A model generated the notes under the pieces. The model was not told the origin of the DNA. It did no database searches and worked only from the letters and a program-made list of their open reading frames with translations. Below, one piece after another: positions 1 through 27,584 of a stretch of DNA of 32,092 nucleotides; within the stretch, counting starts at the first letter, position 1, and each line of letters opens with the position of its first letter. This DNA comes from Oscillospiraceae bacterium. Lineage in GTDB: Bacteria > Bacillota > Clostridia > Oscillospirales > CAG-272. The stretch lies in contig SVTX01000002.1 of NCBI GenBank assembly GCA_015063545.1, positions 67,672-99,763 on the forward strand, given 5' to 3'. The position numbers and the translations under genes are program-made.

Positions 1-1854
1 AAGGGAACGATATACACCGGACCCACAAAAAACATCTGCACACCGGGTCTTAACTGTTACTCATGCCCCGGAGCTTCGGGCGCTTGCCCTCTTGGAGCAC
101 TGCAAAATTCCCTTGCAAGCTCAAACAAGCGACTTCCCTATTACATGTTTGGAATCATTCTGCTTTACGGAATTATAGCCGGACGCTGGATCTGTTCATT
201 CCTTTGTCCGTTTGGCCTTATTCAGGAACTCTTACATAAGATAAAAACTCCCAAGATAAAGAAAAGCCGCGTAACCAGAATACTTTCATATTTCAAATAC
301 GTTATTCTCGTTGTATTTGTATTCATATTCCCGTTGATGTACATGTTCAGACGTGTTCCTCTCCCGGCATTTTGCAAGTATATTTGCCCGGCAGGCACGC
401 TCGAAGGTGCTATGGGATTGCTCTCAAATAAGGTCAATGCAAGTTGGTTCTCAATGCTTGGGCCTCTCTTTACATGGAAGTTCATACTCCTTGTAAGCTT
501 TGTTGTCGGAGCAATATTCATGTTCAGATTTTTCTGCCGTTTCTTCTGCCCTCTCGGTGCGCTTTACGGCTTGTTTAACAAGATTTCTTTCTTCGGCATT
601 CAGCTTGATAAATCCAACTGTACAAACTGTAATCTTTGCGTCAAAAAGTGTCAGATGGACATTGCGCACGTAGGAGATCAGGAATGTATCAGCTGTGGAG
701 AATGTATTGACGTTTGTCCTACCGGAGCAATCTCATGGAAGGGTTCAAAGATAATTCTCCACGCAAATGAGATAAACATTGACGAAAATGTAACTCCCAT
801 AGGCACACCCGAACACGATAAACTCGTGGAAGAAAAGAAAAAGAAGATAAAGACCAGAAACACAATCATAAAGGTTTCTATCATTGCTTCCATGGCGGCA
901 CTGCTTATCGGCGCGCTTCTGTACTACAACGTTTTCTACGGACGTAATGACGATAAAAAGTCATCGGAAAATCAAACCGAAGTACAAACCGAAAGACCTA
1001 CAGAGCCTCCGATAGTTATTCCCGACACGCACGGCATGGAATTCGAGCTTAACGCTGACGGCGAATCCTACACCGTTACAGGACTTGGAGATGTCACGGA
1101 TTCCGAAATCGCAATTCCCGCAACTTACGAAAATCTTCCTGTAACAGCTATAGGCGAGTCTGCGTTTGCTAATACAGATATAACTCTTCTTTCTATACCG
1201 TCATCAATTACAAGCATCGGCGCTAAGGCGTTTGAAAATTGCGCTGAGCTCACAAGAACAATAATACCAGAAAGCGTTACGGTAATTGGCGAAAACGCTT
1301 TTGCAGGATGTAGCAAAGCGACCATATCCTGTAGCATTCTCAAAGCAGATAAGCCTGCCGGATGGGCGAAAAATTGGTGCTCCGATGACGTAGCAATAAA
1401 GTGGCTTCTCCCCGCAACAGGATACAAGGTCGGCATGCTCTGCCCTGAAATGTCACTTGACACATACAAGGGTTCCTCGTTTAATATATCTCAAACCAAG
1501 GGCAAAGTCACTGTCATAAACTTCTGGGGCACATGGTGTACTCCTTGCGTTCAGGAGCTTCCGCATTTTAATGATATCGCAAATGAATACTCTGATTCCG
1601 TAGCTGTTATTGCAATACACTCTGCTCTTGACAGCGACACCGGTGGAGATTACATTAGCGAAAACTTCCCCGGCACAAAAATGATCATTCCTCGCGATAC
1701 CCAAAACGATGATTATTTTAAGTCGCTTGGCGGCACAGTCGCATATCCTATGACACTTGTACTTGATGCTGACGGAATAGTTGTATTCCGCACCGAAGGA
1801 AGTCTCACTCACGCACAGCTCAAAAACGCTGTTGAATTAGCACTTTCAAAATAA
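1..1854 (+). CDS. Membrane polyferredoxin fused to leucine-rich repeats and a TlpA-type thioredoxin domain (5' end outside window)
   Basis: The frame is open from base 1, so the start lies upstream; 617 residues are visible. Numbered from the first visible codon: Cys-Pro clusters typical of NapH/YccM-type 4Fe-4S membrane proteins (about 19-35, 65-70, 125-130, 179-184) among hydrophobic segments; two 4Fe-4S motifs (C207, C210, C213, C217 and C229, C232, C235, C239); a further membrane helix (about 291-315); a Thr/Pro/Glu linker; BspA-like leucine-rich repeats (about 358-443); and a TlpA/AhpC-like domain with WCTPC (C513, C516) and a cis-Pro-type AYPMT motif. Family knowledge places the ferredoxin part in the cytoplasm. 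The extra helix would then put the repeats and thioredoxin fold outside. Role inferred: passing electrons outward to extracytoplasmic disulfides. It converges on the lipoprotein cluster across a shared terminator. The domain calls are firm; the electron path is not proven. Confidence 0.88.
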   Translation, partial: KGTIYTGPTKNICTPGLNCYSCPGASGACPLGALQNSLASSNKRLPYYMFGIILLYGIIAGRWICSFLCPFGLIQELLHKIKTPKIKKSRVTRILSYFKYVILVVFVFIFPLMYMFRRVPLPAFCKYICPAGTLEGAMGLLSNKVNASWFSMLGPLFTWKFILLVSFVVGAIFMFRFFCRFFCPLGALYGLFNKISFFGIQLDKSNCTNCNLCVKKCQMDIAHVGDQECISCGECIDVCPTGAISWKGSKIILHANEINIDENVTPIGTPEHDKLVEEKKKKIKTRNTIIKVSIIASMAALLIGALLYYNVFYGRNDDKKSSENQTEVQTERPTEPPIVIPDTHGMEFELNADGESYTVTGLGDVTDSEIAIPATYENLPVTAIGESAFANTDITLLSIPSSITSIGAKAFENCAELTRTIIPESVTVIGENAFAGCSKATISCSILKADKPAGWAKNWCSDDVAIKWLLPATGYKVGMLCPEMSLDTYKGSSFNISQTKGKVTVINFWGTWCTPCVQELPHFNDIANEYSDSVAVIAIHSALDSDTGGDYISENFPGTKMIIPRDTQNDDYFKSLGGTVAYPMTLVLDADGIVVFRTEGSLTHAQLKNAVELALSK

Positions 1855-1863
1855 AATAAAATT

Positions 1864-1895
1864 GGGACATTCACAAATGCGAATGTCCCTTTTTT
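1864..1895. terminator. Bidirectional intrinsic terminator
   Basis: A 9-bp stem (GGGACATTC, 1864-1872, with GAATGTCCC, 1881-1889) is followed by TTTTTT on the plus strand. An A/T-rich run lies on the other side, so it can serve both the polyferredoxin gene and the convergent lipoprotein gene. Confidence 0.85.
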
Positions 1896-1901
1896 GTTTT
1901 A

Positions 1902-4900
1902 TTATCCAACCTCGGGTGTCAACGTTACAGACGAGCCGGTTGTATTTTTTATTGAGAAATAACAAGGCTCTGTATACTCGATCGGTATCGTTGCGCCGGT
2001 CTCATCCTTCTGCTTATCAAACTTAACGGTTATTGTGCCGTTAACGTCAGCAGAATATGTCTTTCCCTTATATATCACCTTAATACCTGCGGCATTTTTG
2101 AAGGTGATCGTCATTCCTGCGGAACGGGGGTACATGCAGTAAATGGTTGAGTTTGCAGCGACCGTTACGCTGCCGCCGTTTTGAGGAATATTGTAAGAAT
2201 GTGCCTCATCTCTTCCGTCGTAGATATAATCTGCCTCATTCATAATACCTATCGTGTACTCATATCCGAATGCAGAATCTTCTCCAAGAAGTGTTGATTC
2301 ACCAATAAATCCTTCAGGAAGGTTCACAGGGAAAACGCTTACAGTCGCACCTACTGTTGTAACAAATTCAATATATCCGTTAGCATCAGACGTAACGGTT
2401 GCAAGAAGCGCGTCTGTCGCGAAATCATAGATTTCGAACATCATTCCTTCAAGAGGCGCTTTGGTTGCAGAATTTATAACTGTTATTTTATAAGTATATA
2501 CTGCCTTAGCAGCGCCACAAACCTTACAGTTGCTTCCATCGCCGAAATCATGTCCCAATGCGGGGCTAATATCCCAACCGCATACCGTACATTTCTGAGC
2601 CTCGGTACATGTAGCTGCTGCGCCGGGGGTATGATCCTTATAAGGTTCAAGAACCGTCATGCAATGTACACATACCTTCTGGGAGGCACAGGTTGCGCTT
2701 TCGATATTAGGCTCATGAGCAGCCTTGGCAAGAACTTCGCCGCACACTGTGCAAGTCTGATCCTTCTTACATGTAGCCGCCGCACCGGGCTTGTGTCCGA
2801 GAGCAGGCTTTATTTGAATTCCACACACAGTACACGTCTGCGCCGTAGTACATGTAGCTGCTGCACCGGGAGTATGTCCCTTTGCACTCACAAGAGTTGT
2901 TCCGCACACAGTACACGTCTGCGCCGTAGTACATGTAGCCGCTGCACCGGGAGTGTGGTCTATAACACTCGCCAATACGGTATTACATATTTGACATCTC
3001 TGAGGTGTAACGCAAGTTGCAGGTTCACCGGGAATGTGGTCTATGACGCCTACCAATACCGCACCGCATACTGTACAAACCTGAGGTGTTGTACACGTCG
3101 CCTCAGCGCCGGGAGTGTGTCCAAGCGCAGGCTGTATCAGTATTCCACAAGTATTACAAGTTTGTTCTCTTATGCAAGTTGCAGGTTCACCGGGGGTGTG
3201 ACCGGTTGCACTGTCAATAATATAACCGCACACCGTACATGCTTTATCTAAAGTACACGTGGCATTTGCCATGTTAGGGGTATGTCCCTTGGCGGGAGCA
3301 TACTGATAGTCACATCTTATACACAGCTGAGGTGTTGTACACGTTGCCTCGTCGCCGGGGGTATGTCCAAGCGCTGCCTTTATCTGCGTTCCGCACACCG
3401 TACACGTCTGTGCCGAGGTGCACGTTGCCTCAGCGCCCGGAGTATGAGCAAGCTTCGCTATCTGTTCTTCATCAGTAATCGCTCCACACTTTGTACATGT
3501 AGCAACCTTTGTGCCCGTCTCAGCACACGTAGGCTGCTTGGAAACACTCCACTCAAGATCCGCGTGAGCGCATCCAAATCCGCATATGCAAGAATTGCTG
3601 TTTACATATGTATGCTCTTGATATGCGGAAATCTCTCCGCAATTACGTACACAGATCTTCCAATGGTTAGTATCATCAACTGTATATGCCTCAGACCATG
3701 AGTGTCCAAGTGCGGAAATGCTCTGCTGTTCAACTGTAGTTTCTCCGCACACGTCACACATCTTACCGTCAGTAAGTCCGCTTTCCGTACATGTTGCCGC
3801 AATTCCCGGAACTACTGTCTCGGTATGACCTTTTGCAATTATTACGGTCTGCTTTTCCAACTCAATGCCACACACACCGCACACCTTGCCTTCGGTCAAA
3901 CCTGTCTCGGTGCACGTTGCTTCTTTGGCGGACAAAATGACCTCATCATGTCCAAGCGCGGGAATCTCCTGTCTCTGGACAATAACAACACCGCACACTT
4001 CACATATCTTACCGTCGGTAAGTCCGCTTTCCGTACATGTTGCCGCAATTCCCGGAACTACTGTCTCAGTATGACCTTTTGCGGATATTGTTTCTCTCTC
4101 AACAATTGTTGCTCCACACACGCTGCAAGCCACGCCTTCGGTAAGACCGTCTTCTGTACACGTAGCCTGTTTTCCAGGAACAACAACTTCTTGATGTCCG
4201 AGCGCCGGTATCTTACTCTGCGCAACAACATCTGCTCCGCAAACAACGCAAACCGTTCCCTCTGTCAATCCCTCTTCCGTACACGTTGCATCTTTGCCCG
4301 CAATTACTTCTTCGGTGTGTCCTGTCGCAGGAATTTCAACGGGCGCGGAAATGATCTCGCCGCACACTGCGCACTTTACACCGGATGTATATCCAACATC
4401 TGTACACGTAGGTTCAACAGCTAGAATTTCTTCCTCTGTGTGAGAAGGAAGTCTTTCTGTTCCACATATATTACAAGAGCCGTCACAGTCGTTGTCATAT
4501 TCATGAACACACGTAAATCTATCAGGGATGTCGGTGCGTCCCGCTTCAAATCCCGCTATAAAGCTTACGGGATCGGTCGACCATGTCTCGCTCTTGCTTT
4601 CGATGTGAATGTTTATCTCATCGTCCGCTTTTACCAATACATAATTGGCAACGTCTCCGGTTCTATCATCTGTAACGATAGTTCCGTTTACAAAAAGGGT
4701 AACTGCCGCATCAAGCGAATCTATCCAGAAAAATCCGTCGGTACTTACTTTGTAGTAGTAATAATATCTGGAAACACCGGGGTTTGAAAGTGAAGTTCCC
4801 AAAATGAATTCAGGAGTTGTAGTAGTAACACCTATCTCGAGTTCAAAAGGATTTGCTTCTGTTCCGCCGTGATCGTCAGGAGAAACGATAGATGCCTCAA

Positions 4901-5990
4901 ATGTAAATTCAGCGCCTGAATTTACTATTGTGAAATGGTTAGGCAATGAGTAATTTGCAGCTATCGGATTTCCGGCATCATCAAGCTGAGCTTCAAACGG
5001 AACGGTAATTATGCCGTCAACCGGCTCAAATTCCTCATCGTTGTATATCACCTTTATGTTAGCCGCATTTTTGATAGTAAAAACAAATCCGGGTGTTCTG
5101 GGCGCCATGAAATAAACCGTAGCACCTGCGGGAACTGTTACATTGTCTCTGTGATATACTATTAAAGGATGTTCTTCATCACGTCCGTCCGTAGCATAGT
5201 CATCGGGATTCATCAAAGTAATAGCAAGCTCAGTAGTTGTACTATCCAAAAGATATGAGTCGGAATTCGAATAAGGCTCCGGAATACTGCTCAAATATAC
5301 TGTGTAAGCCGCATTCTTTACCAATATAACTGCTATTCCGTTTGCATCCGTAATGCCAGATGCAACCATTCCCTTGCTGTTGTGAAGCTCTACGGTAACT
5401 CCGGAAATAGCCGCCCCATCATATACGTCTGATACCTTAATCTTGTACTCAACTGCCGCATCAACTGTAAATTCTACACTTCTGCCGTCCTCAAACGCAA
5501 TCTTTTCATCAGTAAATATGTATCCGGGGGCACTTACTATTTTTGCAGTATAACCGCTATCTTTTACAAGGTTGACTGTATATTTGCCGTTAGCAGCGGT
5601 AGTACCGCTTGCAACGCACTCGCCGTCCTTATATATCTCAATAACAGCGCCTTCTACTTCGTTGTAGTCATAATCTTCTACAATAACTGAATATGCTATC
5701 TTCTGTTCAGTAGGCTTTTCGGTATTGTCCTCGGAAGGCTTTTCGGTATTGTCCTCGGAGGGTTTTTCGGTATTGTCCTCGGAAGGTTTTTCCGTATTGT
5801 CCTGAGTGGGAGGTTCTGTATCCTCCTCAGAAGGTTTTTCGGTATTCTCCTCCGTAGGTTTATTGGAATTGACATCGGTAGGCTTTTCGGTATTCTTCTC
5901 TGTATGTGTGTTCACATTCGCCTGACATGCAACAAGAACAACTGCCAGGCATATACACAAAACAATTACCGATATTCTCTTAAATATCAT
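1902..5990 (-). CDS. Giant lipoprotein with tandem His/Cys (HCCC) repeats
   Basis: 1362 residues. A lipobox ends at C22 (LVAC), so it should be an extracytoplasmic lipoprotein. The order is: TEKPSEDN-type linker (about 28-95); two CnaB/carboxypeptidase-regulatory-like beta-sandwiches (about 98-262); a domain of about 105 residues repeated at the C-terminus and in the neighbouring 389-residue lipoprotein; a PPC-like region; six 41-residue repeats (517-762) of the pattern H-x11-C-x10-C-x2-C; two degenerate units; eleven repeats of about 26-28 residues, mostly H-x7-C-x5-C-x2-C, plus a final half unit, to about 1164; a third CnaB-like domain; and the repeated domain again. One His and three Cys per unit suggest metal binding or disulfides. 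Similar repeats occur in gut Clostridia surface proteins, and I know of no proven function. AGGAG lies 10 bases before the ATG. It is last in the lipoprotein cluster, 46 bases after the previous gene. Confidence 0.9.
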   Translation of the reverse strand: MIFKRISVIVLCICLAVVLVACQANVNTHTEKNTEKPTDVNSNKPTEENTEKPSEEDTEPPTQDNTEKPSEDNTEKPSEDNTEKPSEDNTEKPTEQKIAYSVIVEDYDYNEVEGAVIEIYKDGECVASGTTAANGKYTVNLVKDSGYTAKIVSAPGYIFTDEKIAFEDGRSVEFTVDAAVEYKIKVSDVYDGAAISGVTVELHNSKGMVASGITDANGIAVILVKNAAYTVYLSSIPEPYSNSDSYLLDSTTTELAITLMNPDDYATDGRDEEHPLIVYHRDNVTVPAGATVYFMAPRTPGFVFTIKNAANIKVIYNDEEFEPVDGIITVPFEAQLDDAGNPIAANYSLPNHFTIVNSGAEFTFEASIVSPDDHGGTEANPFELEIGVTTTTPEFILGTSLSNPGVSRYYYYYKVSTDGFFWIDSLDAAVTLFVNGTIVTDDRTGDVANYVLVKADDEINIHIESKSETWSTDPVSFIAGFEAGRTDIPDRFTCVHEYDNDCDGSCNICGTERLPSHTEEEILAVEPTCTDVGYTSGVKCAVCGEIISAPVEIPATGHTEEVIAGKDATCTEEGLTEGTVCVVCGADVVAQSKIPALGHQEVVVPGKQATCTEDGLTEGVACSVCGATIVERETISAKGHTETVVPGIAATCTESGLTDGKICEVCGVVIVQRQEIPALGHDEVILSAKEATCTETGLTEGKVCGVCGIELEKQTVIIAKGHTETVVPGIAATCTESGLTDGKMCDVCGETTVEQQSISALGHSWSEAYTVDDTNHWKICVRNCGEISAYQEHTYVNSNSCICGFGCAHADLEWSVSKQPTCAETGTKVATCTKCGAITDEEQIAKLAHTPGAEATCTSAQTCTVCGTQIKAALGHTPGDEATCTTPQLCIRCDYQYAPAKGHTPNMANATCTLDKACTVCGYIIDSATGHTPGEPATCIREQTCNTCGILIQPALGHTPGAEATCTTPQVCTVCGAVLVGVIDHIPGEPATCVTPQRCQICNTVLASVIDHTPGAAATCTTAQTCTVCGTTLVSAKGHTPGAAATCTTAQTCTVCGIQIKPALGHKPGAAATCKKDQTCTVCGEVLAKAAHEPNIESATCASQKVCVHCMTVLEPYKDHTPGAAATCTEAQKCTVCGWDISPALGHDFGDGSNCKVCGAAKAVYTYKITVINSATKAPLEGMMFEIYDFATDALLATVTSDANGYIEFVTTVGATVSVFPVNLPEGFIGESTLLGEDSAFGYEYTIGIMNEADYIYDGRDEAHSYNIPQNGGSVTVAANSTIYCMYPRSAGMTITFKNAAGIKVIYKGKTYSADVNGTITVKFDKQKDETGATIPIEYTEPCYFSIKNTTGSSVTLTPEVG
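2520..4442 (-). repeat. DNA encoding the His/Cys repeat array
   Basis: Tandem units of 123 bp (six, 3702-4442) and about 78-84 bp (eleven plus a partial, about 2520-3450), with two diverged units between. Some units are nearly identical: 3761-3836 and 4007-4082 differ at 2 of 76 bases and lie exactly 246 bp (two units) apart, which indicates recent duplication of a two-unit block. Confidence 0.85.
5716..5811 (-). repeat. 24-bp tandem repeats encoding the TEKPSEDN linker
   Basis: Four 24-bp units start at 5716, 5740, 5764 and 5788. The first three are nearly identical and the fourth is diverged. Each encodes eight residues of a Thr/Pro/Glu/Asp/Asn-rich stalk just after the lipobox. Linkers of the same composition, with less exact repeats, follow the lipobox in the three other lipoproteins of the cluster. 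Confidence 0.85.
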
Positions 5991-6036
5991 AATTTTCTAG
6001 CTCCTATTTGATTTGTTTGCTCCAAATAAAGCAAGT

Positions 6037-7206
6037 TTATTGCTCTGTAAATGTAATTTGAAAACTCACAGGTGATGTCTCGAAATTAGGATTTTCTACC
6101 GTTATGATTATGTAGTCTCCTATCTCAATCTCCGCTGTTGTTGCAGGATTGTTTTCCTCATCTACAAGCGGCACTGAACTCTCGTTCAAATATACCGAGA
6201 TGCTTGCATCGGATGTAGATATTGATATTGTTCCGTCTGCGATCGCGATCCATTCGTAATAGTACACGGTTATACCGGGATCGGCAAGTGACGTGCCCGC
6301 TATGAAATCCGGAGTTGTAATCATCTCGTTTATCTTAAGCATAAACGGGTTATCTTTGCTCTCTCCCGCATTTTTGGGAAGGAGAGAAATCTTTTGAGTA
6401 TATGCGGTATCAGAAAGATTTGTGATAACAAATTCATTAGGCTCACTATAAAGCACATCAATATTCTGTTCCTCAAACTCAACGGTTATGACACCATCCA
6501 CGGGAAGGTATTCCGTTTCCTTATATGTTACCATAAGTCCGGATGCATTCTTAAGTGTAAGTACATAACCGGATGTTCTTGCCGAAATGCAATAAACAGT
6601 CGCGCCGCCGGCAATGCTTATTTCATCATCGTCAAACACAGGCAACGCATGATCTGCATCACTTCCGTCTGTCGCATTATCCGAAGGATCCGAAAGTGCT
6701 ATATTCAATTCATAGCCATCGACAAAAATATATGTATCCGTGTTATCATAATTCTCGGGAACATTTGAAAGCTTTACAATATAATACATATCAAGCGCAA
6801 GAAACTCGGCCTTGCCGTTGGAATCCGTGTTTGAGGACATAACAAGTTCATCGTTTCGGTTATAAAGTCCTACAGTGACATCCTTGATGGGCGCACCATC
6901 AAACATATCCGATACTGTTACGGTATGCAACACCTTATCTTCATCTTCATCATCGGTTGGAGTCTCTGTGGGATCTTCCTTTGACCCATCCTCAGTTGGT
7001 GTCTCAGTGGGTTGCTCTTGTGTGGGGTTCTCAACATTTTCATTAGTAGGCGCTTCGGTGCCCTTGTCGTCAGTATTGGCTTTTGTAGATTGCTCTTTTG
7101 ATGATTTTTCATCACCGGAAGAGCTATCGCAAGCAACGATAACAAACATGACAGATAATACTAAGCAAATGCATAAAATACTCGCTGCCAATTTTCTTAA
7201 ATTCAT
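6037..7206 (-). CDS. Lipoprotein with CnaB-like and PPC-like domains, paralogue of the His/Cys-repeat protein
   Basis: 389 residues, lipobox VIVAC with C26 as lipidation site, then an acidic Thr/Pro/Glu linker (about 27-92). A CnaB-like beta-sandwich (about 93-178) is followed by the about 105-residue domain starting near DGSDADH, and then a C-terminal beta-rich region. The whole layout matches the N-terminal half of the 1362-residue protein, including the phrases TTPDF or TTPEF and AGTSL or LGTSL, but the Cys repeats are absent. AGGAGGT lies 8 bases before the ATG. A good promoter (7245-7273) sits directly upstream, so this gene and the next can be expressed apart from the rest of the cluster. 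Function is unknown; a surface scaffold or binding role is only a guess. Confidence 0.88.
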   Translation of the reverse strand: MNLRKLAASILCICLVLSVMFVIVACDSSSGDEKSSKEQSTKANTDDKGTEAPTNENVENPTQEQPTETPTEDGSKEDPTETPTDDEDEDKVLHTVTVSDMFDGAPIKDVTVGLYNRNDELVMSSNTDSNGKAEFLALDMYYIVKLSNVPENYDNTDTYIFVDGYELNIALSDPSDNATDGSDADHALPVFDDDEISIAGGATVYCISARTSGYVLTLKNASGLMVTYKETEYLPVDGVITVEFEEQNIDVLYSEPNEFVITNLSDTAYTQKISLLPKNAGESKDNPFMLKINEMITTPDFIAGTSLADPGITVYYYEWIAIADGTISISTSDASISVYLNESSVPLVDEENNPATTAEIEIGDYIIITVENPNFETSPVSFQITFTEQ

Positions 7207-7244
7207 ATCGTTGTACCTCCTGTTTGATATTTTATACCATTCTA

Positions 7245-7273
7245 ATTATAACACTTATTTCTTTATTTTGCAA
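7245..7273 (-). promoter_or_regulatory. Sigma-A-type promoter for the 389-residue lipoprotein gene
   Basis: Read on the minus strand: -35 TTGCAA (7268-7273), 17-base spacer, -10 TATAAT (7245-7250), then about 38 bases to the ATG with an AGGAGGT ribosome site in between. A 22-base palindrome (7281-7302) lies 7 bases upstream of the -35 box. Confidence 0.8.
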
Positions 7274-7280
7274 TAGTTTT

Positions 7281-7302
7281 CTATATTTGTTTACAAATAT
7301 AG
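7281..7302. promoter_or_regulatory. Palindrome, candidate operator
   Basis: Perfect 10-bp arms CTATATTTGT and ACAAATATAG separated by TT, just upstream of the -35 box. It could bind a dimeric regulator, or it could be the weak 3' part of the terminator next to it. The regulator is unknown. Confidence 0.4.
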
Positions 7303-7325
7303 CGCGCCGATTTTCATCGGCGCGC
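7302..7325 (-). terminator. GC-rich hairpin, probable terminator of the 575-residue lipoprotein gene
   Basis: A 10-bp stem (GCGCGCCGAT with ATCGGCGCGC) around a TTTC loop. On the minus strand it is followed by TATATTTG, a weak T-run, so termination may be partial. Confidence 0.55.
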
Positions 7326-7351
7326 CGTATTATCTGTGTTACTTGAGTTCA

Positions 7352-9079
7352 TTAAATATAAGCGTAAGTGTATACCACCTCTACGGGTTCTGACATATCT
7401 GCACTTCCCTTGATACAGAATGTTCTTGTCTCACCGATAGTAACAGTTATAACGCCATTTTCATCTGCGGTATATACCTGTCCGTCGTATTCAACACTTA
7501 TTCCCTCAGCCGCGTTTACTGTAAGTTCAACGGATATACTGTTGGATTTTTCATTCACATTGTAGTAGAATGTGTCGGATGCACCAACAAGCGATGTTGC
7601 GCCTTCGGGATTTACAAGAAGTGCGCTTTCGCCATCTGTTCCTTTGTCCTCAACAGTTACAATACACGCGGCGAAGAGCCATGCATTTTCAACGGGAGGC
7701 TGGGACATTCCGTACATACTGTACAGATTATTGGAAGACTCACTATCCCACCATCCAACATACTCACCGTGCTGTTTGATAACATATTCAAGCATCTCGT
7801 CCAAGGGATATACTCCGGATGCATCAAGCATTTCCTTATATGCCAAGATAATCTGATTATAGCTCTCTTTCCTTATAGGATTACCTTCTTCATCAAAGAA
7901 ATAACGGCACATTCTGCTTGTATCTATAATCGTAGTGAAAGATGCAAGGTTGGGTGCATTAGTTTCAGGATCAAAGCCAAAATAATCTATGGTAGCAGAA
8001 AGACGTACGTAAACTATGGGGCCGTCAGCCGTTCCAAGATGATAATATCCGTCGCTTTCGTTCATAACGAGCTTCAGATCAGGTGACATAAGATCAAGAT
8101 TTGTAAGGACGACATTCTTGTTGTGATATGAAAGCTTGATGGGAGTAAGCTCTTTTTCTATTGTAGGTACGATCCATTCAAGATCTTCTGTTGAAAGAGG
8201 CATATCGGCTACTCGCTCAATAACAAGAACACAATCCTTTGCAGATCCGTCTGTTGTGAGACCGATAACGCACACTGCGCTATCCCCTGTCGTGATGCTG
8301 CTCTTTCGTATAGAATACTCAACAACGTTGTCAACTGCCGGAATAAGGGAATTATCATAAACGTTTATTACCGTTCCACCGTAATATCCAACCTCTACAA
8401 AATTATCGGATATTACACTTATATTGTAAATGCCGTCACGGGTGGGGCGGAATATGAAATAGCTTCTCTCGCCCTCGTAAGCGTCAGATGTAACTCCGCG
8501 AAGCTTTACGTACGTTGCGCCGGGATGAACGTATCCTGCGCCGTTTTCACTCTTATAAAAATCCTTGTTTGTATCCGTCACTTTATTGTAAACAGGGATA
8601 CGTACAGATGTGATCTCTTCTGTAAAGTCGCAGAAGTCATCACACTTATAATCATGATCCGAAAGTTCAAAGGTAGCGCTGTAATCTCCCTTTTCCGCCT
8701 TAAAGCTCGCTTTTCCGTTAGCTATAGGAGCAATCTGTCCGTTCGAAAGGCTCATTACACCGGACATTGATGTTACGGTATTTCCCTTGTAATCTACAAA
8801 TTCAAGAGAGTAATCTATCTTCTCACCGTCAGTAACATTGTCGGTGGGCTTTTCGGTAGGCTGCTGTGTATTATCTTCTGAGGGCTGTTCGGTAGGCTGC
8901 TGTGTATTATTTTCTGAGGGCTTATCATCCGTTGCTTTTTCGGTAACGGTATCTTTTTCTTTGTCTTGTGTTTTTTTATTCTCTTCAGTATTGCCCCCGT
9001 CACATGCAGTGGCAATAAACATTGCGCTTATGAGCATACAAGCAATAAGCACAATTCCTATATACTTTTTAAATTTCAT
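7352..9079 (-). CDS. Lipoprotein of unknown function with PPC-like beta-sandwich region
   Basis: 575 residues from the ATG at 9079. GGAG lies 6 bases before it, and the next residues form a proper signal peptide with lipobox IATAC (C26). An in-frame TTG at 9091 would add four residues but would sit on the ribosome site. The lipobox is followed by a linker rich in Gln, Pro, Thr and Glu (about 30-85), a short beta domain, a region with RSYFIFRPTRDGIYNISV like PPC domains (about 190-300), and a segment containing DGYYHLGTADGPI that is matched by DGYYHVGSADGPI in the upstream 977-residue protein. The two are therefore partial paralogues. No catalytic motif or redoxin motif is seen. It lies 75 bases after the 977-residue gene with a terminator hairpin between, so it probably depends on read-through. 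Confidence 0.87.
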   Translation of the reverse strand: MKFKKYIGIVLIACMLISAMFIATACDGGNTEENKKTQDKEKDTVTEKATDDKPSENNTQQPTEQPSEDNTQQPTEKPTDNVTDGEKIDYSLEFVDYKGNTVTSMSGVMSLSNGQIAPIANGKASFKAEKGDYSATFELSDHDYKCDDFCDFTEEITSVRIPVYNKVTDTNKDFYKSENGAGYVHPGATYVKLRGVTSDAYEGERSYFIFRPTRDGIYNISVISDNFVEVGYYGGTVINVYDNSLIPAVDNVVEYSIRKSSITTGDSAVCVIGLTTDGSAKDCVLVIERVADMPLSTEDLEWIVPTIEKELTPIKLSYHNKNVVLTNLDLMSPDLKLVMNESDGYYHLGTADGPIVYVRLSATIDYFGFDPETNAPNLASFTTIIDTSRMCRYFFDEEGNPIRKESYNQIILAYKEMLDASGVYPLDEMLEYVIKQHGEYVGWWDSESSNNLYSMYGMSQPPVENAWLFAACIVTVEDKGTDGESALLVNPEGATSLVGASDTFYYNVNEKSNSISVELTVNAAEGISVEYDGQVYTADENGVITVTIGETRTFCIKGSADMSEPVEVVYTYAYI

Positions 9080-9104
9080 ATCATTCTCCAATATTGTGAT
9101 TTGT

Positions 9105-9143
9105 CAAAAATGGCGGTCTGTGGGTACACCCTCAAACCGCCAT
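9105..9143 (-). terminator. Intrinsic terminator inside the lipoprotein cluster
   Basis: On the minus strand, ATGGCGGT (9136-9143) pairs with ACCGCCAT (9110-9117) and is followed by TTTTT. It sits right after the 977-residue gene and only about 25 bases before the next start codon. Confidence 0.75.
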
Positions 9144-9154
9144 AACTTTAAATA

Positions 9155-12088
9155 TTAGTCTACACTGACGGTAGGACCGTAATGCTTATAGTAGAAGCAA
9201 AGCTTGGTCCATGAATGTTCAACGTCTTCAAATGTATAGATATCCATGTATGTCTGAAGTATTTCGGCGAGCTCCTCGGTCACTTCTATGCATCCGTTAA
9301 GCTCTACGTTTTCACTATCGGTAATCACCTGATCAAGGTATACCCGAATCTGCTCGGTGTAGTCACCGGGACCGTGATATATGCCGTTCTTGACGTCATT
9401 TATTACACCTACTCTCTGAGCATACAAATACTCACCCCAAAGATCCTTGAATCCCTGAACCTCATCAATTCCCTCTTCTGCAAAGAAAGGAATATATTCT
9501 TCAATTTCCCTGTCGAGTGAAGTTTTTTCAAAATTGAATGCTCCCATATTGACAGCCTCTTCAAGCGAGTGGCTGAACAATCCTGTAAGCGTCCAGAAAT
9601 CTGCATAAAGCACGGGGCCCTGAGAACCGTCTGCGTTCTTAACGTAATACTTGCCGTCAACAAGCATCACGTCCACACCGCCCGCTTCAGGGGATGCGCC
9701 GTAATCTATCTCACCGTCGCCATCATCAGGCATAGTGAAATATCCGGGAGATGCAAGTGTGAATATATCCGCGGTATCGCCTATCTTTTCAACTCTGAAA
9801 GTAAATGTTCCCGCAGCATAAATGTCATAGTATGCAAGGTCAAGATAGTACGTCTGTCCCGCTTCCATGTAGTATATTATAGATACGTTCTTGGTATCCG
9901 ACCACATTTTCTCACTATGTTCATAAGTGAACATAAGCTCATGATTTTCATTAAATATCCAAGCATCAACCGCATAGTCTACTCCGCTGACAATGCCTGC
10001 TTCCGTACTATACGATGTTATACGGTAAACACCCGATTCTTCGGGAGTGAACTTGAACAAGTAACCTCTGGGCATTATTATCTGGGTATATGTTACAGAG
10101 TTTGCAATATCAAGCTTTGCCTCATATGCCGAGAAAGGAGCAAGTCCCTTTATGGGATCTTCCATCTGCTTTCCACCTGTTCCGTACGCATCATAGTATA
10201 CGCACATCTGAAGCCACTGATCCTCGTTTCCAACTTCGATTCCGACTGCTTCTGCCACTTTTTCGAGAATCTGTCTGAGCTCCTCGTTTACGCTACAGTA
10301 GCCGTACATTTTGGAGTTTATGGAGTAGTTGGCAAATTTTTCGATATCATCAACGTAATCTTTTCCATCTACAACTATCAAACCGTTGTACGCCATGTTC
10401 CAAACGGACATATCTCCGAATCTGGAACCACTCATAAGGTTTGCAAGAAGGATAGGTCCGTCTGCAGAACCAACATGATAATAACCGTCTGCTCCGAGCA
10501 CAACATCTACATAGCTGTTGTATCCGGATCCGAGATCATTAAAATCGTTTACCGCATGTCTGAAAATATACGTTTCCTTGTCTATAAGGTCAAGATCTTC
10601 AACAACTCTGAGGTTGTCAATATATATGGTGTCGTCTCCAACATCGCTTCCGGTATCCTTGAGATAACAAAGGGAAAGCTCATATACTCCGTCTTCAAGA
10701 GCTACGTAAGGATAACACGTTTCCCATCCGTCACCGTCACCGGATATCTGATACATTGCCTCTCTGTCAACAAGAACATAGAGTATATCGTTTCCAAGCT
10801 CGGTAGATGACCAATAATCAAATGCAAGCGCCTGTCCTGCTTTCATCTCAACATACGCATAAATGATAGAGTAGGTTCCGGGCTTGAATGCGTTGGATGT
10901 TTTTATGCAGGTCTGTCCGCCCTTTTCTCCTACTATGAAGGGCCATGCGTATTCCGCATCTTCATCATCCATTTCAGGAGTGAAGTTAACATTCAGGTCT
11001 CCGCAACCGAGAGCATTGGAAATCTCATCCGACGAAGGCATATCAATATTAGGCTTTTCCACAGGAGTAAGGATAGAAGGATCTTCTATGATCTGCTGCT
11101 GATAATCATCTGCTGTAAAGTACTTGAATATAGCCTCAAATTCATATCCCGACATAGCGCCTGTAACGATAAGGCAAACTACGCCGTATCTGTCAACGAT
11201 TACGGAAGTAGGCGCGCCGGAGGGATTGAACTTGTATACTATTCCCTCTCTATCATATGCTACAGGGAATGTGAGTCCTTCTGCGGGAAGATCACCGGAT
11301 GCAATGTATTTATCCATAAAGGACTTTATTGCCTTGTCATCATCAAAAGGAGAAATTGCAACTATTTCAACGGAATCGCTGTACTTTTTATACATCTCAT
11401 CCATCTCGGGGAATTCCTGCAAGCAGTATGCACATCCGTCATACCAATAGTTGATAAGCATCATTTTCTTTTCCTTGAGAACTTCGGAAAGAGTTATTTC
11501 GCGCTTATCATCAAAGGTGGTTACGGTGAAGTCGTACATAACGTCGCCAAGCTTATAACTGTCGGGAGCGACATCGTCGGTGATTACACTTGACGTAAGA
11601 ACAACATCCGCATGATTTTCTTCAAATGCATAGCTTTCCTTGGCAGTATATCCTGCGGGCATGCTTGTCACCTTTGCAACGTAAGAACCGTTGGGGGCAA
11701 GCTTTATAGAAGCTTCTCCGTTTGCATCTGTGGTAGCATAGCCCATAATGGCATCCGAACTGTCATGAACAAACACCCAGATATCCTTCATCGGCATTCC
11801 GCCTACTGTTTGTACACTAATGGTGTATTCAACCTTATCATCGGGCTTTTCCGTAGGCTTCTCTGTGGGCTTCTGTGTGGGCTTTTCTGTAGGATCTACC
11901 GAGTTATTCTCTGTAGGATCTTCTGTGTTGTCCTCAGACGGAGCAGCCGTCGGCCCCTCTGTTTTTGTTTCCTTTTGCTTTTTATCATCCGTATCAGCGC
12001 CATCGCATGCGACCAGCGTCGTAAAACATACCGTTACGAGCATGATAATTGCAAGAAAAAGCGAAAGATATCGTTTCAAATCCTTCAT
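9155..12088 (-). CDS. Lipoprotein with TlpA-type redoxin domain and adhesin-like modules
   Basis: 977 residues, lipobox LVAC (C28), with AAGGAGA 7 bases before the ATG. The order is: Thr/Pro/Glu/Lys linker (about 30-85); CnaB-like domain (about 86-175); TlpA/AhpC-like thioredoxin fold (about 181-345) with catalytic C219-A-Y-C222 and GAPTS supplying the cis-proline; a beta-sandwich (about 365-500) with FDYWSSTE and DDTIYIDNLRV, as in gingipain-type cleaved-adhesin domains; a helical segment with DGYYHVGSADGPI; a PPC-like domain (about 670-780); and a C-terminal helical region. TlpA-family proteins exchange thiols and disulfides outside the cytoplasm. Here the domain would be held on the outer face by the lipid anchor. 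Partners may be the Cys-rich lipoprotein and the TlpA domain of the polyferredoxin fusion, but this is inference. It is first in the minus-strand cluster. Confidence 0.9.
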   Translation of the reverse strand: MKDLKRYLSLFLAIIMLVTVCFTTLVACDGADTDDKKQKETKTEGPTAAPSEDNTEDPTENNSVDPTEKPTQKPTEKPTEKPDDKVEYTISVQTVGGMPMKDIWVFVHDSSDAIMGYATTDANGEASIKLAPNGSYVAKVTSMPAGYTAKESYAFEENHADVVLTSSVITDDVAPDSYKLGDVMYDFTVTTFDDKREITLSEVLKEKKMMLINYWYDGCAYCLQEFPEMDEMYKKYSDSVEIVAISPFDDDKAIKSFMDKYIASGDLPAEGLTFPVAYDREGIVYKFNPSGAPTSVIVDRYGVVCLIVTGAMSGYEFEAIFKYFTADDYQQQIIEDPSILTPVEKPNIDMPSSDEISNALGCGDLNVNFTPEMDDEDAEYAWPFIVGEKGGQTCIKTSNAFKPGTYSIIYAYVEMKAGQALAFDYWSSTELGNDILYVLVDREAMYQISGDGDGWETCYPYVALEDGVYELSLCYLKDTGSDVGDDTIYIDNLRVVEDLDLIDKETYIFRHAVNDFNDLGSGYNSYVDVVLGADGYYHVGSADGPILLANLMSGSRFGDMSVWNMAYNGLIVVDGKDYVDDIEKFANYSINSKMYGYCSVNEELRQILEKVAEAVGIEVGNEDQWLQMCVYYDAYGTGGKQMEDPIKGLAPFSAYEAKLDIANSVTYTQIIMPRGYLFKFTPEESGVYRITSYSTEAGIVSGVDYAVDAWIFNENHELMFTYEHSEKMWSDTKNVSIIYYMEAGQTYYLDLAYYDIYAAGTFTFRVEKIGDTADIFTLASPGYFTMPDDGDGEIDYGASPEAGGVDVMLVDGKYYVKNADGSQGPVLYADFWTLTGLFSHSLEEAVNMGAFNFEKTSLDREIEEYIPFFAEEGIDEVQGFKDLWGEYLYAQRVGVINDVKNGIYHGPGDYTEQIRVYLDQVITDSENVELNGCIEVTEELAEILQTYMDIYTFEDVEHSWTKLCFYYKHYGPTVSVD

Positions 12089-12196
12089 AAATTTTCTCCT
12101 TGTGTGTGTGTTTTGTGGATGCTTTTCTTCCTATTATATAATGCAACGTGTAACAGCACGTTTTGCTCCGATGTCATGAAAGCATACTCTTTTGAT

Positions 12197-12225
12197 AGTA
12201 TATCATAAATGACTTGCAAAGTCAA
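12197..12225 (-). promoter_or_regulatory. Promoter of the lipoprotein cluster
   Basis: On the minus strand: TTGACT (12220-12225), 17-base spacer, TATACT (12197-12202). This leaves a leader of about 100 bases before the ATG at 12088. A second TATAAT lies at 12133-12138 but has no good -35 box. Confidence 0.7.
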
Positions 12226-12258
12226 CAAGAAAAATGTTAAAAATTATGAACGACCATA

Positions 12259-12301
12259 TTTACAAATTATACATGATTTTTTATTATAGGTGTGGTATAA
12301 T
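12259..12301 (+). promoter_or_regulatory. Promoter region of the giant protease gene
   Basis: TTTACA (12259-12264), 17-base spacer, TATTAT (12282-12287). An extended -10, TGGTATAAT (12293-12301), lies just downstream and could act alone. It is divergent from the lipoprotein promoter, with about 35 bases between the two -35 boxes. Confidence 0.6.
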
Positions 12302-12335
12302 GTTTTTTATGTATAATGGTGTAGTATGAGCTACT

Positions 12336-15300
12336 ATGGCCAAAACCAAAAAAAGAAAGGCAAAAACACTGATTATGAAGCAAAAAACATTGAAACGAGT
12401 GACCCTCTCCATACTGGTCACACTTCTTGTTGCATCAATGACTCTTGCTTTCAGCGCATCTATGGTGAAAGAGGTTGCAGCGGCGGTTGCAGCACCCGAC
12501 ACATCATACATCACGCTTTTTGACAAGAACATTAACACCAACAAGGAACAATTCTATGACAACTCGGTAATTTACAAGCTCCCGGATACAGTAAAAGACA
12601 CCGACATTATCTCGCTGATAGTTGAGGTGCCTCAGGCTCCCCTTCTCGAAACCTATAAGACCGCTAACACCGACATGAGCTTTTCGGAATACGCGGTAAG
12701 CGATGAGGCTGAAGAGATAAGATCAAACATCCTCTCTCTCAAGAACGAACTTATCAGCGATCTTGAAGGCACCGATATAGAATACGGCAGCGGAGCTTCT
12801 TACGCATCTATTCTCAGCGGATTCGAGATTAGTATAAAGGCGGCGGATTTCGAGCAGACATGTAAGTTGTTCGGAGATCGCGCAAACGTAATCGTATCCG
12901 AGGTGTACAAGCCCGCAGAGACAAAGCTGGTTGAAAATGAGGTCAACGTATACGATACCGGTATTTTCGACAGCTCCAAGTTCGGATACGACGGAACCGG
13001 TATGGTTGTCGCAGTTCTTGATACGGGTATTGACTACGGACATTCCGCATTCTCTCTTGAGAACTTTACGGCAGACAGAAGTAAGCTTGGTCTTACATTT
13101 GAACAAATATCTGCTCTTATGGCAAACAACTCCTTCGCATCCGAAAGACTGTATAACGGTCTTACCGCATCTGACGTTTATATAAACGAGAAGATTCCCT
13201 TCGGTTTCGACTATGCCGACTACGACCCGGATGTATTCCCCATCAAGAGCGATCACGGAACTCACGTTTCCGGTATTATCGCAGGTAAGGATGACACGAT
13301 CACAGGTGTTGCTCCCAACGCTCAGCTTGTTGAAATGAAGATATTCTCCGATGTTCAGGATTCGGCTATAGCTTCTTGGATCCTTACTGCGGTTGAAGAC
13401 TGTGTGCTTCTCGGCGTTGACGTTATCAACATGTCCATCGGTACGAGCTGCGGATTCAGCCGTGAGACCGATAAGGAAGCAATGTCCGGCGTATATGACA
13501 GAGTTCGTGAAGCAGGCATAAGCCTTATAGTTGCCGCTTCCAACAGCTACAACTCAACATACGGCTCTGAAAAGAACGGTAACCTCGGTCTTACATCCAA
13601 CCCTGACAGCGGTACGGTAGGATCGCCCTCTACATACGCAGGTGCGCTCTCAATCGCTTCCATCAGCGGCAAGAAGACTCCTTACCTTCTTTACAACGAT
13701 AAGATAGTTTACTTCACCGAATCCTCCGATAAGTACTCTGAGGAGAAAAACTTCCTTGATGACATTCTCCCTGAGGGTGTAAATGAAAAGGAATTCGAGT
13801 ACGTTACCATTCCCGGTGTAGGACGTAGAGCAGACTACACGGGCGTTGACGTAACCGGCAAGATAGTTCTTGTTAAGCGTGGTGATACGACGTTTGAAGA
13901 AAAAGCCAACATAGCTCAGGAAAAGGGCGCTGTCGGTATCATCGTTTACAATAATGTATCCGGTGAGATCAAGATGAACGTCGGAAGTATTACGATTGCG
14001 GCATGCTCCATCGGTCAGGACGATGGTGAAGCCTTGGCGGCATCCGCAAGCGGCAAGATCAAAGTAAGCCGTTCACAGACATCCGGTCCCTTCATGTCCG
14101 ACTTCTCCTCCTGGGGCCCCACTCCCGACCTCAAGCTCAAGCCCGAGCTTACAGCTCACGGCGGCTCTATTCTCTCCTCAGTTCCCGGTCAAGCCTACGA
14201 CCGTATTTCGGGAACATCCATGGCCTGCCCCAACATCGCAGGCGCAACAGCTTTGCTTCGTCAGTATATTATAAATAGATTCCCCGAATATAAAGATAAC
14301 AACGTAAAGATCGCAGAGATCGCAAACCGCCTGTTCATGTCAACAGCGGATATCATAACAAACAAGAACGGTCTTCCCTATTCCGTAAGAAAACAGGGAG
14401 CAGGACTTGCAAACCTTGATAATTCCGCTAAAACCAATGCCTACATCATCACTTATGATGAAAACGGACAGGCAACCGACAAGACCAAGATCGAACTTGG
14501 CGATGACCCTTCAAAGGCCGGTGTTTATACGCTTAAGTTCTCTGTATGTAACTTTGGAAGCACCACTCTCACATATGACATCTCCACTTATGTTCTCACA
14601 GAAGGTGTGAGTGATACAAAAACAAATGATGGAAAGACAACAGTTACCGAAGAAGCTTACGAGCTCAAGGACGCTGTGATTTCCATAGCTTCTGCGGGCG
14701 CTAACGGAAACACCCTCAGCGTAAGCGCAGGACAAACTGTTGACGTTACTGTTACTGTAACTCTCGGCGCGGGCGACAAGGAATATCTTGATAAGTCATT
14801 TGAAAACGGAATGTACGTTGAGGGCTTTGTTGTTCTTGACGCAAAAGAAGAAAATTCCGTTGACCTCAGCGTTCCCTACCTCGCTTTCTACGGCGACTGG
14901 ACAAAAGCTCCTTTGTTCGACCTTGATTATTTCCAGACCAACAAGGATGAGCTTGACGATTCAATAAGCCTTCTTGACAAGACTCTCCCCGATGCGTACG
15001 CTACGCGTCCTATCGGCGGTCTCAACAGTGACTACGTAAACTACCTCGGCTCTTACTACTTTACTCAGAATCCCGCTACCACTCCCATTGCCGCAGACAG
15101 AAAGTATATTTCTCTGTCTAACCAAGATGACGCGGTAAATTCTCTCAGATTCGTTTGGGCAGGTATGCTCAGAAGCGCCGAAAGAATAGAGATAACCATT
15201 ACCGAGGATGCAACCGGAAAGGTGATATTCTCTAAGACCGAATCCGATATACGAAAATCTTACGGTGACGGTGGATCTATCTATCCTGCTAACGTTAAAA

Positions 15301-18300
15301 TAGAATTCAGCGCAATCGAAAATCAACTTAAGAACAACACAAAATACACCGTAAAGCTCAAGGGATATCTTGACTATGGTGACGGCGGCGAGAATTCCAA
15401 CCTTAATAATGAATTTGAATTCCCGCTTGTTACAGACTTCCAAGCCCCCGCGGCAACCGACTGTCAGTTCTACACAGAATACGACAAGGCCACCGAAAAG
15501 ACAAGACTTTTTGCTAAGGTTGCGATATATGACAATCATTATGCAATGTCAGCACAATTCGGATACGTTGAATATGATCCTAGCGATACAGAAGTTCCCT
15601 TTACATTCCAGACATTTGACAAGTATATGACTCCCATATACTCGGAAGAAGATTCTGTTTCCTACGTAGTTTACGAGCTTACAGATTATATTTATCAGAT
15701 CAAAAACAATGCATACAATAAGAACACACTTGCAATAGCCGTTTATGACTATGCGCTCAACCAGGCTACTTACGAGATAGAACTTCCCGACGAGATCTCG
15801 GATCTCTACTTTGAGGAAGAAGAAATCACCCTCAGCCCCAACGAGATATTTGATCTCAAGCCCCTTATTTACCCCAATACAAAGTGGTCTGAACTCCTTC
15901 AGTTCACAGTTACCATTCCTCCTACAGGAGAGGTAGCAAGAATAGTAAACAACAAGCTCGTTGCCATTGCCCCCGGTAAGTGCAAGGTAATTGCAACAGC
16001 AAGAGACCCAATCACAAACAAACAAAAACAGGCAAGCTTCATTTTGACTGTTTTGGGAGAAGACGATGAAGGCTACGTAGAATACGATAAGACGGTAACC
16101 GACAACTTCTTCCTTTCCGGATACTATGTCAACAAAGCATTCTACATGCTCAACACAGAGGATAGAGATGTCGGCGTTACTGGAGACAATATGAAATTCG
16201 GCTCAAGTAACTACTCTCTTGCTATGTTCCCCTCCGAGGCAGTTACGCTCCAATATGTTCTTGATGCATACTATCCTGCAGAAACCGATGTCGTATTCAA
16301 GTCCAGCAACGATAAGATCGCAACGGTAGATGAAAATGGAAAGATAACAGCTGTTGCCGAAGGATTTGCATCCATCTCCGTAAACGTTCTTTTGGACGGA
16401 AAGAGCACCTACTACTCGCAATCCATAAGCATTGAGGTTAAGAACCCCTTCCTTAACACAGGTCCTTCTCTTACTCACTATTTTGGAAACGGCGGAACGG
16501 TTGAATTCCCCGACAGTGTGGCAGTAACCGAGATCGGTCAGTTCGCATTCTCCAACTTCGACTATATCGCCAAGGACCCCGCAATGGGAGACATAATCAA
16601 CGACGATTATCCCGAACTTACAAAGATCTGGTTCATCGGTGATAAAGATGTTACCGAGGGTGAAAAAATAAAGAAGGTCATTATCCCCTTGGGTGTTGAA
16701 AAGATAGGTTCTTACGCATTTGCAGGACTTGTCGAACTTGAAGAGGTAGTTATTCCTCACACCGTTACCATGATAGATCAGGGCGCATTCTACGGATGTA
16801 CTTCTCTTTCCAAGATATCCTACATGGATGAGAATGGCGAAATACATTCCGATAACGGCTTGAAGTACGTTAAGCTTATCAACCAGAGCGCCTTTGAAAA
16901 CACGAATCTTAACGGAACCTATAATCTTGAAAGCGCAGTTGCTATCGCAAGCTACGCATTCAGAAACTGTAAGAATCTTGACGGCATAATTCTCGGAAAG
17001 AATACGGTTTCCGTAGGTGACTACGCATTCGCGTCAAACGTTTCTCTTGAAAAGCTTACCTTTGAGGCAAGCAAGACAAAGCTCGGTGTTTACGCATTCT
17101 CAGGTTGCTCTTCTCTTGAATCTGTAACATTGAACACAGAGGTAATTCCTACCGGCTTGTTCAGCGGAGCATCCGCGCTTACAGAGATCAACCTCGGAGC
17201 AAGCATTGCAGTTATAGGCGAATATGCTTTCGCGGGAACGGATATTGACACCATCACAATTGATGCTGCAAACAAGTTCTTCGCGGTTCGCGACAAATAT
17301 ATTGTTAACACAACCGGCGACACTCTCGTTTTGGTAATGCCTTACATCAAAGGCAACTTTACTCTTAACGATCCCGCTATTACAAAGATAGGCAACGGCG
17401 CATTCTCCGGAAACAAAGCTATCACCTCTGTAAGCATGCCTTACGCGACTTCCGTCGGTGACTTTGCATTTGCAAGATGCTCTTCTCTTGCCAGCGTTGA
17501 ACTCGCTTCGACACTTACTTATATCGGAGATTACGCATTCTACAACACGGAAATATCCTCGCTTCCCTCTTTTGCAGGCGTAAGCAGCATAGGCAACTAT
17601 GCATTTGCAGGTACTAACATTGAGAACGTCAATGTTCCAAGCGGAGTAAAGATAGGCAACAGCGCATTTGCTAACTGCCTCGTTCTTGAAAACATCACCA
17701 TTGGCAACGATGTCGAAATAGGAAACTTTGCATTTGGTCTCGTTACATCTGATAACTGGTCACTTGTAAAAGGAGCAGACGGAAATTACCGTTACGTATT
17801 TGCTTCTCCCATTCACTCGCTTACCATAGGCGACAATGCTGTAATCGGTGACAGAGCGTTCTACGGCGCGTGTGAGCTTGAAAGCATAACTCTCGGTCAG
17901 GGTGCTGTAATCGGAGAATATGCATTCTATAACACAAGCAAGCTTACAAGCATTGATGGCCTTTCCAAAGCTCTCTCTATTGGCGCGTTTGCGTTCAACG
18001 GAGACGTGTACAACATCTTCACAGACAGCTCTGCGCAGTCGATGTTGATAGATGAAAATAATGAATATGTGTATGCATACTATTCATCTGCATTCACAAG
18101 CATTGACCTCTCTGCTGCGACAAGCATCGGTGAAAGCTCGTTCGCAGGATGTGTAAACCTTGAAAGTGTAACTCTCGGTAATGCTATCAAGGATATCCCC
18201 AATACAGCATTTATCGGATGTACTGTTCTTACAGACATTGACCTTTCCGGCATTGAAACAATAGGCGATAGCGCATTTGCTCGCACTGCTCTTACAGCCG

Positions 18301-19919: not shown

Positions 19920-19987
19920 AAAACATACGACTTGTCCGTATAAGGACAGGATCTTACAAACACGTATAAAAAATACGGAAAATAAGC

Positions 19988-20031
19988 CCGATGAACTATG
20001 AGGGTAGATATTCCCTTGCATAGTTCATCGG
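19988..20031. promoter_or_regulatory. Long perfect hairpin before the lipoprotein ribosome site
   Basis: CCGATGAACTATG (19988-20000) pairs without mismatch with CATAGTTCATCGG (20019-20031), and AGGG/CCCT can extend the stem inward. There is no T-run, so it is not a standard terminator. The 3' arm ends on the first GG of an upstream GGAGG, and the GGAG used for the ATG at 20052 lies just beyond. Two weaker hairpins (19931-19950, and near 19963-19977) precede it. It may be an RNA processing, stability or translation-control element. Confidence 0.5.
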
Positions 20032-27582: not shown

Positions 27583-27584
27583 AT

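Follow-up and report, generated by a model that had tools for sequence, protein, structure and literature searches.

A candidate disulfide-reducing electron line beside a surface protein-digestion locus in gut Clostridia of herbivores

Two questions are raised by the locus described here: from where would its thioredoxin-like surface proteins draw their electrons, and which proteins would make use of them? The window, by which we mean the whole stretch of 32,092 nucleotides that was analysed, occupies contig positions 67672–99763 of a draft genome of 1.83 Mb. The first-pass annotation had proposed a chain in which cytoplasmic electrons pass through a fused membrane carrier to a TlpA lipoprotein and from there to a Cys-rich lipoprotein. 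Pfam matches and Cys counts place all three proteins where it had put them. We propose a disulfide-reducing electron line, encoded by this locus, which leads from the cytoplasm to the cell surface and is tied to surface protein digestion, a reading that we hold with as much belief as doubt.

Relatives of the carrier gene (80 of 439 relatives kept, all 80 used) come from metagenome genomes titled Clostridia or Oscillospiraceae, with Agathobacter in two. By record title, 61 stem from gut sections of deer, goat, sheep, cattle, yak or buffalo and five from rabbit (Lapin); the other 14 titles give no host. A second survey covered 395 family genomes, which are related to one another and mostly drafts. 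The two surveys overlap and are not independent (e.g., locus L129 is a contig of genome G005).

The fused carrier and its CXXC neighbor

Gene 1 (positions 1–1854, forward strand) encodes a NapH-like polyferredoxin followed by an extra transmembrane helix, an LRR_5 stretch and a TlpA/redoxin domain, as assigned by Pfam, alignment and helix scan. The full frame comprises 655 residues and begins at contig position 67558, 114 nt ahead of the window, which leaves its first 38 codons outside. The Pfam matches above cut-off are Fer4_5 (54.4 bits; cut-off 22), Fer4 (38.4 bits; cut-off 21.1), LRR_5 and Redoxin; DsbD_TM is not among the matches of this protein. With Fer4_5 membrane Cys motifs and 4Fe-4S repeats, the protein is by sequence a NapH-like polyferredoxin with predicted clusters. 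It is related to the NapH/MauN subfamily TIGR02163 and is not a member of it (80.7 bits versus a cut-off of 213). The N-terminal group of four Cys, three CxxxCP sites and eight ferredoxin Cys, which include the probable iron-sulfur ligands, are invariant in 62 aligned carriers. Relatives in the PDB (33 sequences at E 0.01) cover the ferredoxin part only, from about profile position 218 on.

The TlpA/redoxin domain of gene 1 (1426–1812, forward strand; Redoxin match at residues 476–604 of the window translation) carries the motif WCTPC. Its C418, C421 and P491, in the numbering of the reference row, are invariant in the 62 sequences, and the TlpA motif is in frame with the carrier at 76 of 80 related loci. 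The redoxin model, the CXXC motif and the cis-Pro position identify it, at the level of sequence, as a TlpA/ResA-like thioredoxin domain. In the helix scan, all four fused proteins examined have an additional helix after the Fe-S part and ahead of TlpA, and none of four stand-alone carriers has it. Because this one helix separates the two, the ferredoxin part and TlpA would lie on opposite sides of the membrane, and TlpA is probably on the outer side. The scan finds three strong helices ahead of the ferredoxin part, which leaves the orientation unsettled; a cytoplasmic ferredoxin part requires a weaker N-terminal helix, whose best window scores 1.06 against a threshold of 1.6. A BspA-type LRR (window positions 1144–1326) is inserted between the Fe-S part and TlpA of this gene; a search with a crude LRR motif was negative at all 80 loci related to gene 1.

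Directly upstream of the carrier, and outside the window, contig positions 66669–67553 encode a membrane protein that ends in a CXXC motif. A CXXC tail is present just upstream of the carrier at all 79 loci with enough sequence, the remaining one of the 80 being cut. The protein belongs to the CD1871A family by the NCBIfam cut-off of NF040920 (34.2 bits versus 32; 40.3 bits in the genome search), and the genome search for this family was positive in none of 14 controls. At eight stand-alone-carrier loci, a small CXXC frame lies directly upstream in seven and a TlpA gene is adjacent in seven. The trio of CXXC protein, carrier and TlpA is thus wider than the present locus. By inspection, genes similar to L-cysteine desulfidase are found close to the carrier in G042 and G021 (L041:3605–4885 and L049:2041–3306), and a cysK-like gene lies upstream in the genome of origin.

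The lipoproteins, the subtilase operon and their joint occurrence

The TlpA lipoprotein (977 residues; 9155–12088, reverse strand) was delimited by Pfam, alignment and PDB search. Above the Pfam cut-offs it matches AhpC-TSA and Redoxin at about residues 180–306, and its TlpA-type domain (11171–11551, reverse strand) contains C219 and C222 and has ResA as its nearest PDB relative. C219, C222 and P293 are invariant among six aligned orthologues. Fold model, CXXC and cis-Pro mark the domain as TlpA/ResA-like by sequence, with a predicted reductase activity, while the C-terminal 631 residues of the protein have no Pfam match at E 1.

Two further lipoproteins, each with a lipobox by inspection, sit between the Cys-repeat lipoprotein and the TlpA lipoprotein. 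One (389 residues; 6037–7206, reverse strand) has a SpaA/bMG3-like part after an N-terminal linker, by Pfam matches below the curated cut-offs. The other, p579 (7352–9091, reverse strand), showed no known domain above cut-off in the Pfam scan, and a related protein lies beside the TlpA lipoprotein in mapped relatives. The significant stretch common to p579 and the TlpA lipoprotein falls mainly in the low-complexity N-terminal part, together with a short GYYHxGxADGPI motif. The p579-type protein of G167 (L121:14179–16404) bears a TlpA-type domain of its own. In G145 a lipoprotein (L223:3678–5474) joins a TlpA domain to a trigger-factor/FKBP-like, i.e., foldase-like, part recognized by inspection, and in G284 a TlpA protein has a SpaA-like partner part, also by inspection.

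A spacer of 247 bp (12089–12335) separates the TlpA-lipoprotein gene from a divergent subtilase gene. The promoter scan of this spacer returned one promoter-like match per strand, two in total versus a shuffle mean of 1.4, which is not above chance. The subtilase operon spans 12336–29012 and lies outside the stretch on which the first-pass observation was made. Its first gene encodes a giant subtilase (12336–19919, forward strand; Pfam, helix scan and orthologue survey) with Peptidase_S8 (146.4 bits), PA (60.8 bits), fn3_5 (53.4 bits), Big_2 and LRR_5 domains, an N-terminal hydrophobic stretch and, according to the helix scan, a C-terminal transmembrane helix at residues 2414–2432. Envelope subtilases of the lactocepin/C5a-peptidase type are defined by an S8 catalytic domain, PA, fn3_5 and a surface anchor. 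The present protein, with all four features predicted from its sequence, is of this type. It is followed by the lipoprotein LP482 (19998–21446, forward strand; no Pfam family, lipobox by inspection), which comes after the subtilase in most mapped relatives. Next is an Opp-like ABC importer (21477–28688, forward strand) whose binding protein, two permeases and two ATPases were named by inspection; the model scan was confined to the binding protein and gave a weak Opp4A match (92.6 bits versus a cut-off of 650). The mapped relatives have a similar set of Opp-like genes in similar order. The operon ends with p105 (28695–29012, forward strand), a small protein with one hydrophobic stretch by inspection. 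Beyond it, the window holds a glutamine-synthetase-like gene (29044–30519) and a flavodiiron-protein-like gene (30649–31803), both recognized by inspection.

Among the 395 family genomes, the fused carrier is present in 52, the TlpA lipoprotein in 52 and the subtilase orthologue in 48, and 46 genomes hold all three. Fused and stand-alone carriers were split by open-frame length (at least 478 residues, or the split frame of G021) and not sequence by sequence; a short TlpA-lipoprotein match in G424 and subtilase matches of at most 54% identity, the closest ones available in 15 genomes, were left out before counting. The pairwise counts are 47 for carrier and TlpA lipoprotein, 46 for carrier and subtilase, and 48 for TlpA lipoprotein and subtilase, so that each of the 48 genomes with the subtilase orthologue also holds the TlpA lipoprotein. 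Where two genes share a contig they are less than 20 kb apart: 24 of 24 cases for carrier and TlpA lipoprotein, and 34 of 34 and 37 of 37 for the other two pairs. Joint conservation had been put forward with the original chain as its check, and for the carrier and the TlpA lipoprotein it was borne out. Because the genomes are related, Fisher p values for these counts overstate independence.

In five genomes, including G124 and G262 (both 96% complete), the carrier is present but a full TlpA lipoprotein is missing, and five show the reverse. Within the genus of the present genome (12 genomes), three hold all three genes, G002 and G010 (68 and 76% complete) hold only lipoprotein and subtilase, and seven hold none. 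The 23 genomes with only the shorter, stand-alone carrier contain neither the TlpA lipoprotein nor the subtilase orthologue, and eight stand-alone-carrier stretches of 11–20 kb contain neither a catalytic subtilase nor the C-terminal part of the TlpA lipoprotein. At the 38 of the 80 related loci that have 9 kb on both sides, a catalytic subtilase is present in 25 and absent in 13 (catalytic domain alone, LRR matches excluded), and the C-terminal part of the TlpA lipoprotein is present in 18.

The block mapped in other genera comprises the CXXC membrane protein, the carrier, a p579-type protein, the TlpA lipoprotein, the subtilase, LP482 and the Opp-like genes. It is rearranged yet kept in G014, G021, G173 and G308, where the gene for the TlpA lipoprotein is found on the far side of the Opp genes. 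The subtilase locus, left out of the first-pass chain, is the strongest partner of the redox genes and the better-supported client side. A more distant subtilase (35–53% identity) occurs in 15 genomes that have neither redox gene, so surface subtilases in general do not need the system. Given the joint presence and proximity of these genes and the envelope-proteinase-like domains of the subtilase, the surface protein-digestion locus is the likeliest user of the reductant.

The cysteine repeats

The Cys-repeat lipoprotein (1362 residues; 1902–5990, reverse strand) was characterized by Pfam scan, Cys count and repeat pattern, and contains 71 Cys, 65 of them within the repeat region. An array of 18 repeats (2550–4406, reverse strand), counted with a pattern that demands three Cys and one His, has two spacings: seven repeats are near C-x10-C-x2-C-x14-H, one of them shorter, and 11 are C-x5-C-x2-C-x8or9-H. 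In a pattern-free check, 19 of 20 CxxC motifs are preceded by a Cys and followed by a His, which gives an odd number of Cys. The array matched no Pfam model at E 0.1 and no PDB entry below E 0.3, with a rubredoxin (E 0.31) as the sole relative. Three Cys and one His per repeat suggest metal binding; together with the scattered distribution described next, this favors a metal-binding stalk module over a dedicated client.

In the survey of family genomes, for which three first-look candidates were scored in each, repeats were found in 155 of 395, comprising 45 of the 52 with the fused carrier and 110 of the 343 without it, counts that are uncorrected for kinship; none of the 23 genomes with a stand-alone carrier has them. 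Close to the carrier they are found at four of the 38 well-flanked loci. The genome of origin has more than 20 open frames with repeats (in the window and on contigs C12, C31, C41, C61, C64 and C66), among them that of a protein with 131 Cys. Two of its proteins, of 2197 and 1006 residues, have a TlpA domain flanked by repeats (L056, G000 C31:27841–34434, and L058, G000 C12:18773–21793), joined to a NAGPA domain according to Pfam or to a part that by inspection is SGNH-like. A further lipoprotein with Cys repeats, whose C-terminus looks esterase-like by inspection, is encoded at L009 (G000 C55:52000–54996), some 13 kb upstream of gene 1. In G009, G005, G280, G385 and G348 the position next to the TlpA lipoprotein is taken by a repeat protein, and in G389 the repeats lie within the TlpA lipoprotein itself.

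The electron half of the chain first proposed, i.e., carrier and TlpA lipoprotein, is thus supported by co-conservation, while its other half, the Cys-repeat lipoprotein as conserved partner and client, is rejected as the general case: the repeats are scattered, seldom near the carrier, and also present in genomes that lack it. A degree of exchange between TlpA domains and repeats may nonetheless take place. That the TlpA lipoprotein reduces the Cys-repeat lipoprotein, as client or as electron store, is very unlikely on this evidence, in which the enrichment of repeats in carrier genomes, the repeat-flanked TlpA domains and the proteins in the adjacent slot are set against the four of 38 loci, the many other frames, the metal-site-like pattern and the odd Cys number.

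The proposed electron path, its alternatives and known systems

The sequences show the domains, the invariant redox Cys, and the joint and close occurrence of carrier, TlpA lipoprotein and subtilase across genomes; the path built on them is predicted. In it, electrons from reduced ferredoxin would enter on the cytoplasmic side, at the ferredoxin part of gene 1 with its two clusters. The NapH-like membrane cysteines would carry them across, as the positions of the conserved Cys suggest. On the outside their acceptor would be the fused TlpA domain, probably reached by way of the neighboring protein's CXXC tail, and Fe-S electrons would there become dithiols. The fused TlpA would then reduce the TlpA lipoprotein, held by its predicted lipid anchor, as well as the additional TlpA proteins that some genomes encode. 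Finally, disulfides of protein substrates would be opened, the membrane-anchored subtilase would cut the chains, and the Opp-like importer would take up the peptides. Some gut bacteria of herbivores may in this manner use cell electrons to open external disulfides, aiding protein digestion.

Genes of established thiol systems were also sought. CcdA/DsbD as the electron donor was rejected, since DsbD_TM (PF02683) was found neither in the genome of origin nor in any of 20 genomes with the fused carrier, while 10 of 14 controls were positive. It was likewise not found in nine of 10 genomes in which no carrier was found and in three of five with a stand-alone carrier. The absence fits a replacement of CcdA/DsbD but is not specific, because the carrier-less genomes mostly lack it too. 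Methionine sulfoxide repair of the Etrx-MsrAB type was rejected, SelR/MsrB being found in none of eight genomes with the system and in 10 of 14 controls (MsrA was outside the search). Oxidative folding via VKOR was rejected as well: VKOR was found in none of the eight genomes tested, in a search that was positive in only three of 14 controls and did not include DsbB. Few enzyme-made disulfides would accordingly be expected in these eight genomes.

The subtilase could itself be the client, with the reductase keeping its catalytic-domain Cys reduced for activity or for redox switching. C356, C372 and C557 are present in 14, 13 and 13 of 14 block-linked subtilases, respectively, nine of which also have a Cys three residues past the catalytic Ser (assigned by motif). 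In ten paralogues of about 50% identity these Cys occur in two, nine and four, and in seven more distant subtilases in none, one and one. C372 is therefore nearly as frequent among the ten paralogues, although eight of these belong to genomes that lack the system and only two (of G418 and G425) to genomes that have it, and the other lipoproteins of the block would be left unexplained; we regard a protease client as unlikely, though worth keeping in mind. The opening of substrate disulfides is likelier, because the block encodes at least two TlpA modules along with large lipoproteins of the surface; the sequences themselves leave the choice undecided.

A broader role, general thiol repair in the envelope, would have the system correct wrong disulfides in any exported protein, with the proximity of the protease reflecting quality control. 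This would suit the joining of TlpA to unrelated parts, such as the foldase-like part in G145, the SpaA-like part in G284 and the Cys repeats in the genome of origin, but not the presence of the TlpA lipoprotein in every genome with the subtilase orthologue, nor the result for VKOR with the limits given above, and we consider it distinctly unlikely. The ferredoxin-type input and the peptide-uptake context would also agree with electron disposal, in which peptide fermenters dump ferredoxin electrons onto external disulfides as a respiratory sink. As no respiratory enzyme is seen in the mapped block and the supply of disulfides would limit the flux, this is highly improbable. The reading preferred here remains the reduction of substrate disulfides ahead of the subtilase. 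Its strongest form, a new class of transmembrane disulfide reductase in which electrons pass from Fe-S clusters through a CXXC tail to TlpA dithiols, replacing CcdA/DsbD, and which was recruited in hindgut Clostridia, with protease and importer, for reductive protein digestion, is put forward tentatively, and we lean against it rather than toward it.

In the best-known envelope thiol-reducing pathways, electrons travel through thiol cascades of the DsbD/CcdA type. A carrier that turned Fe-S electrons into surface dithiols would, if real, be another route beside these cascades. No paper in the open-access library searched mentions polyferredoxin together with TlpA, or NapH together with TlpA, and none contains the word CD1871A. 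In the arrangement of the CD1871A family, a CXXC protein also stands beside a 4Fe-4S membrane protein and TlpA, and most of the eight stand-alone-carrier loci resemble it; in the present locus, by comparison, the CXXC motif ends a larger membrane protein, carrier and TlpA form one fused protein, and a subtilase block adjoins. The cell-envelope proteinase of the lactocepin type is a membrane-anchored protein with S8, PA and fn3_5 that works with an Opp peptide importer. We know of no thiol reductase at lactocepin loci. The present subtilase shares the domains, the membrane anchor and the importer, and has a putative thiol reductase added.

The CcdA-Etrx-SpMsrAB2 system of Streptococcus pneumoniae (PMC3914529) has a membrane donor that feeds thioredoxin-fold lipoproteins on the surface, so that surface proteins are kept reduced. 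An integral membrane donor and surface thioredoxin-fold lipoproteins are features of both systems, whereas here the donor resembles an Fe-S carrier and not CcdA, MsrB is not found in the eight genomes searched, and a protease and peptide locus adjoins. Clusters for extracytosolic electron transfer with NapH-like proteins have been found through FMN-binding domains and ApbE (PMC8238504). They too use a Fer4_5 membrane protein as a modular transmembrane carrier, but here the partner domain is TlpA, a term that does not occur in the main text of that paper. Disulfide reduction is likewise coupled with proteolysis in the breakdown of keratin, where a protease acts together with a disulfide reductase (PMC8260994). 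The reductases described there are of other kinds, and the line proposed here would be membrane-fed and surface-anchored, with no implication that keratin is its substrate. The link to the protease offers a testable answer to the question of how gut anaerobes digest disulfide-stabilized proteins.
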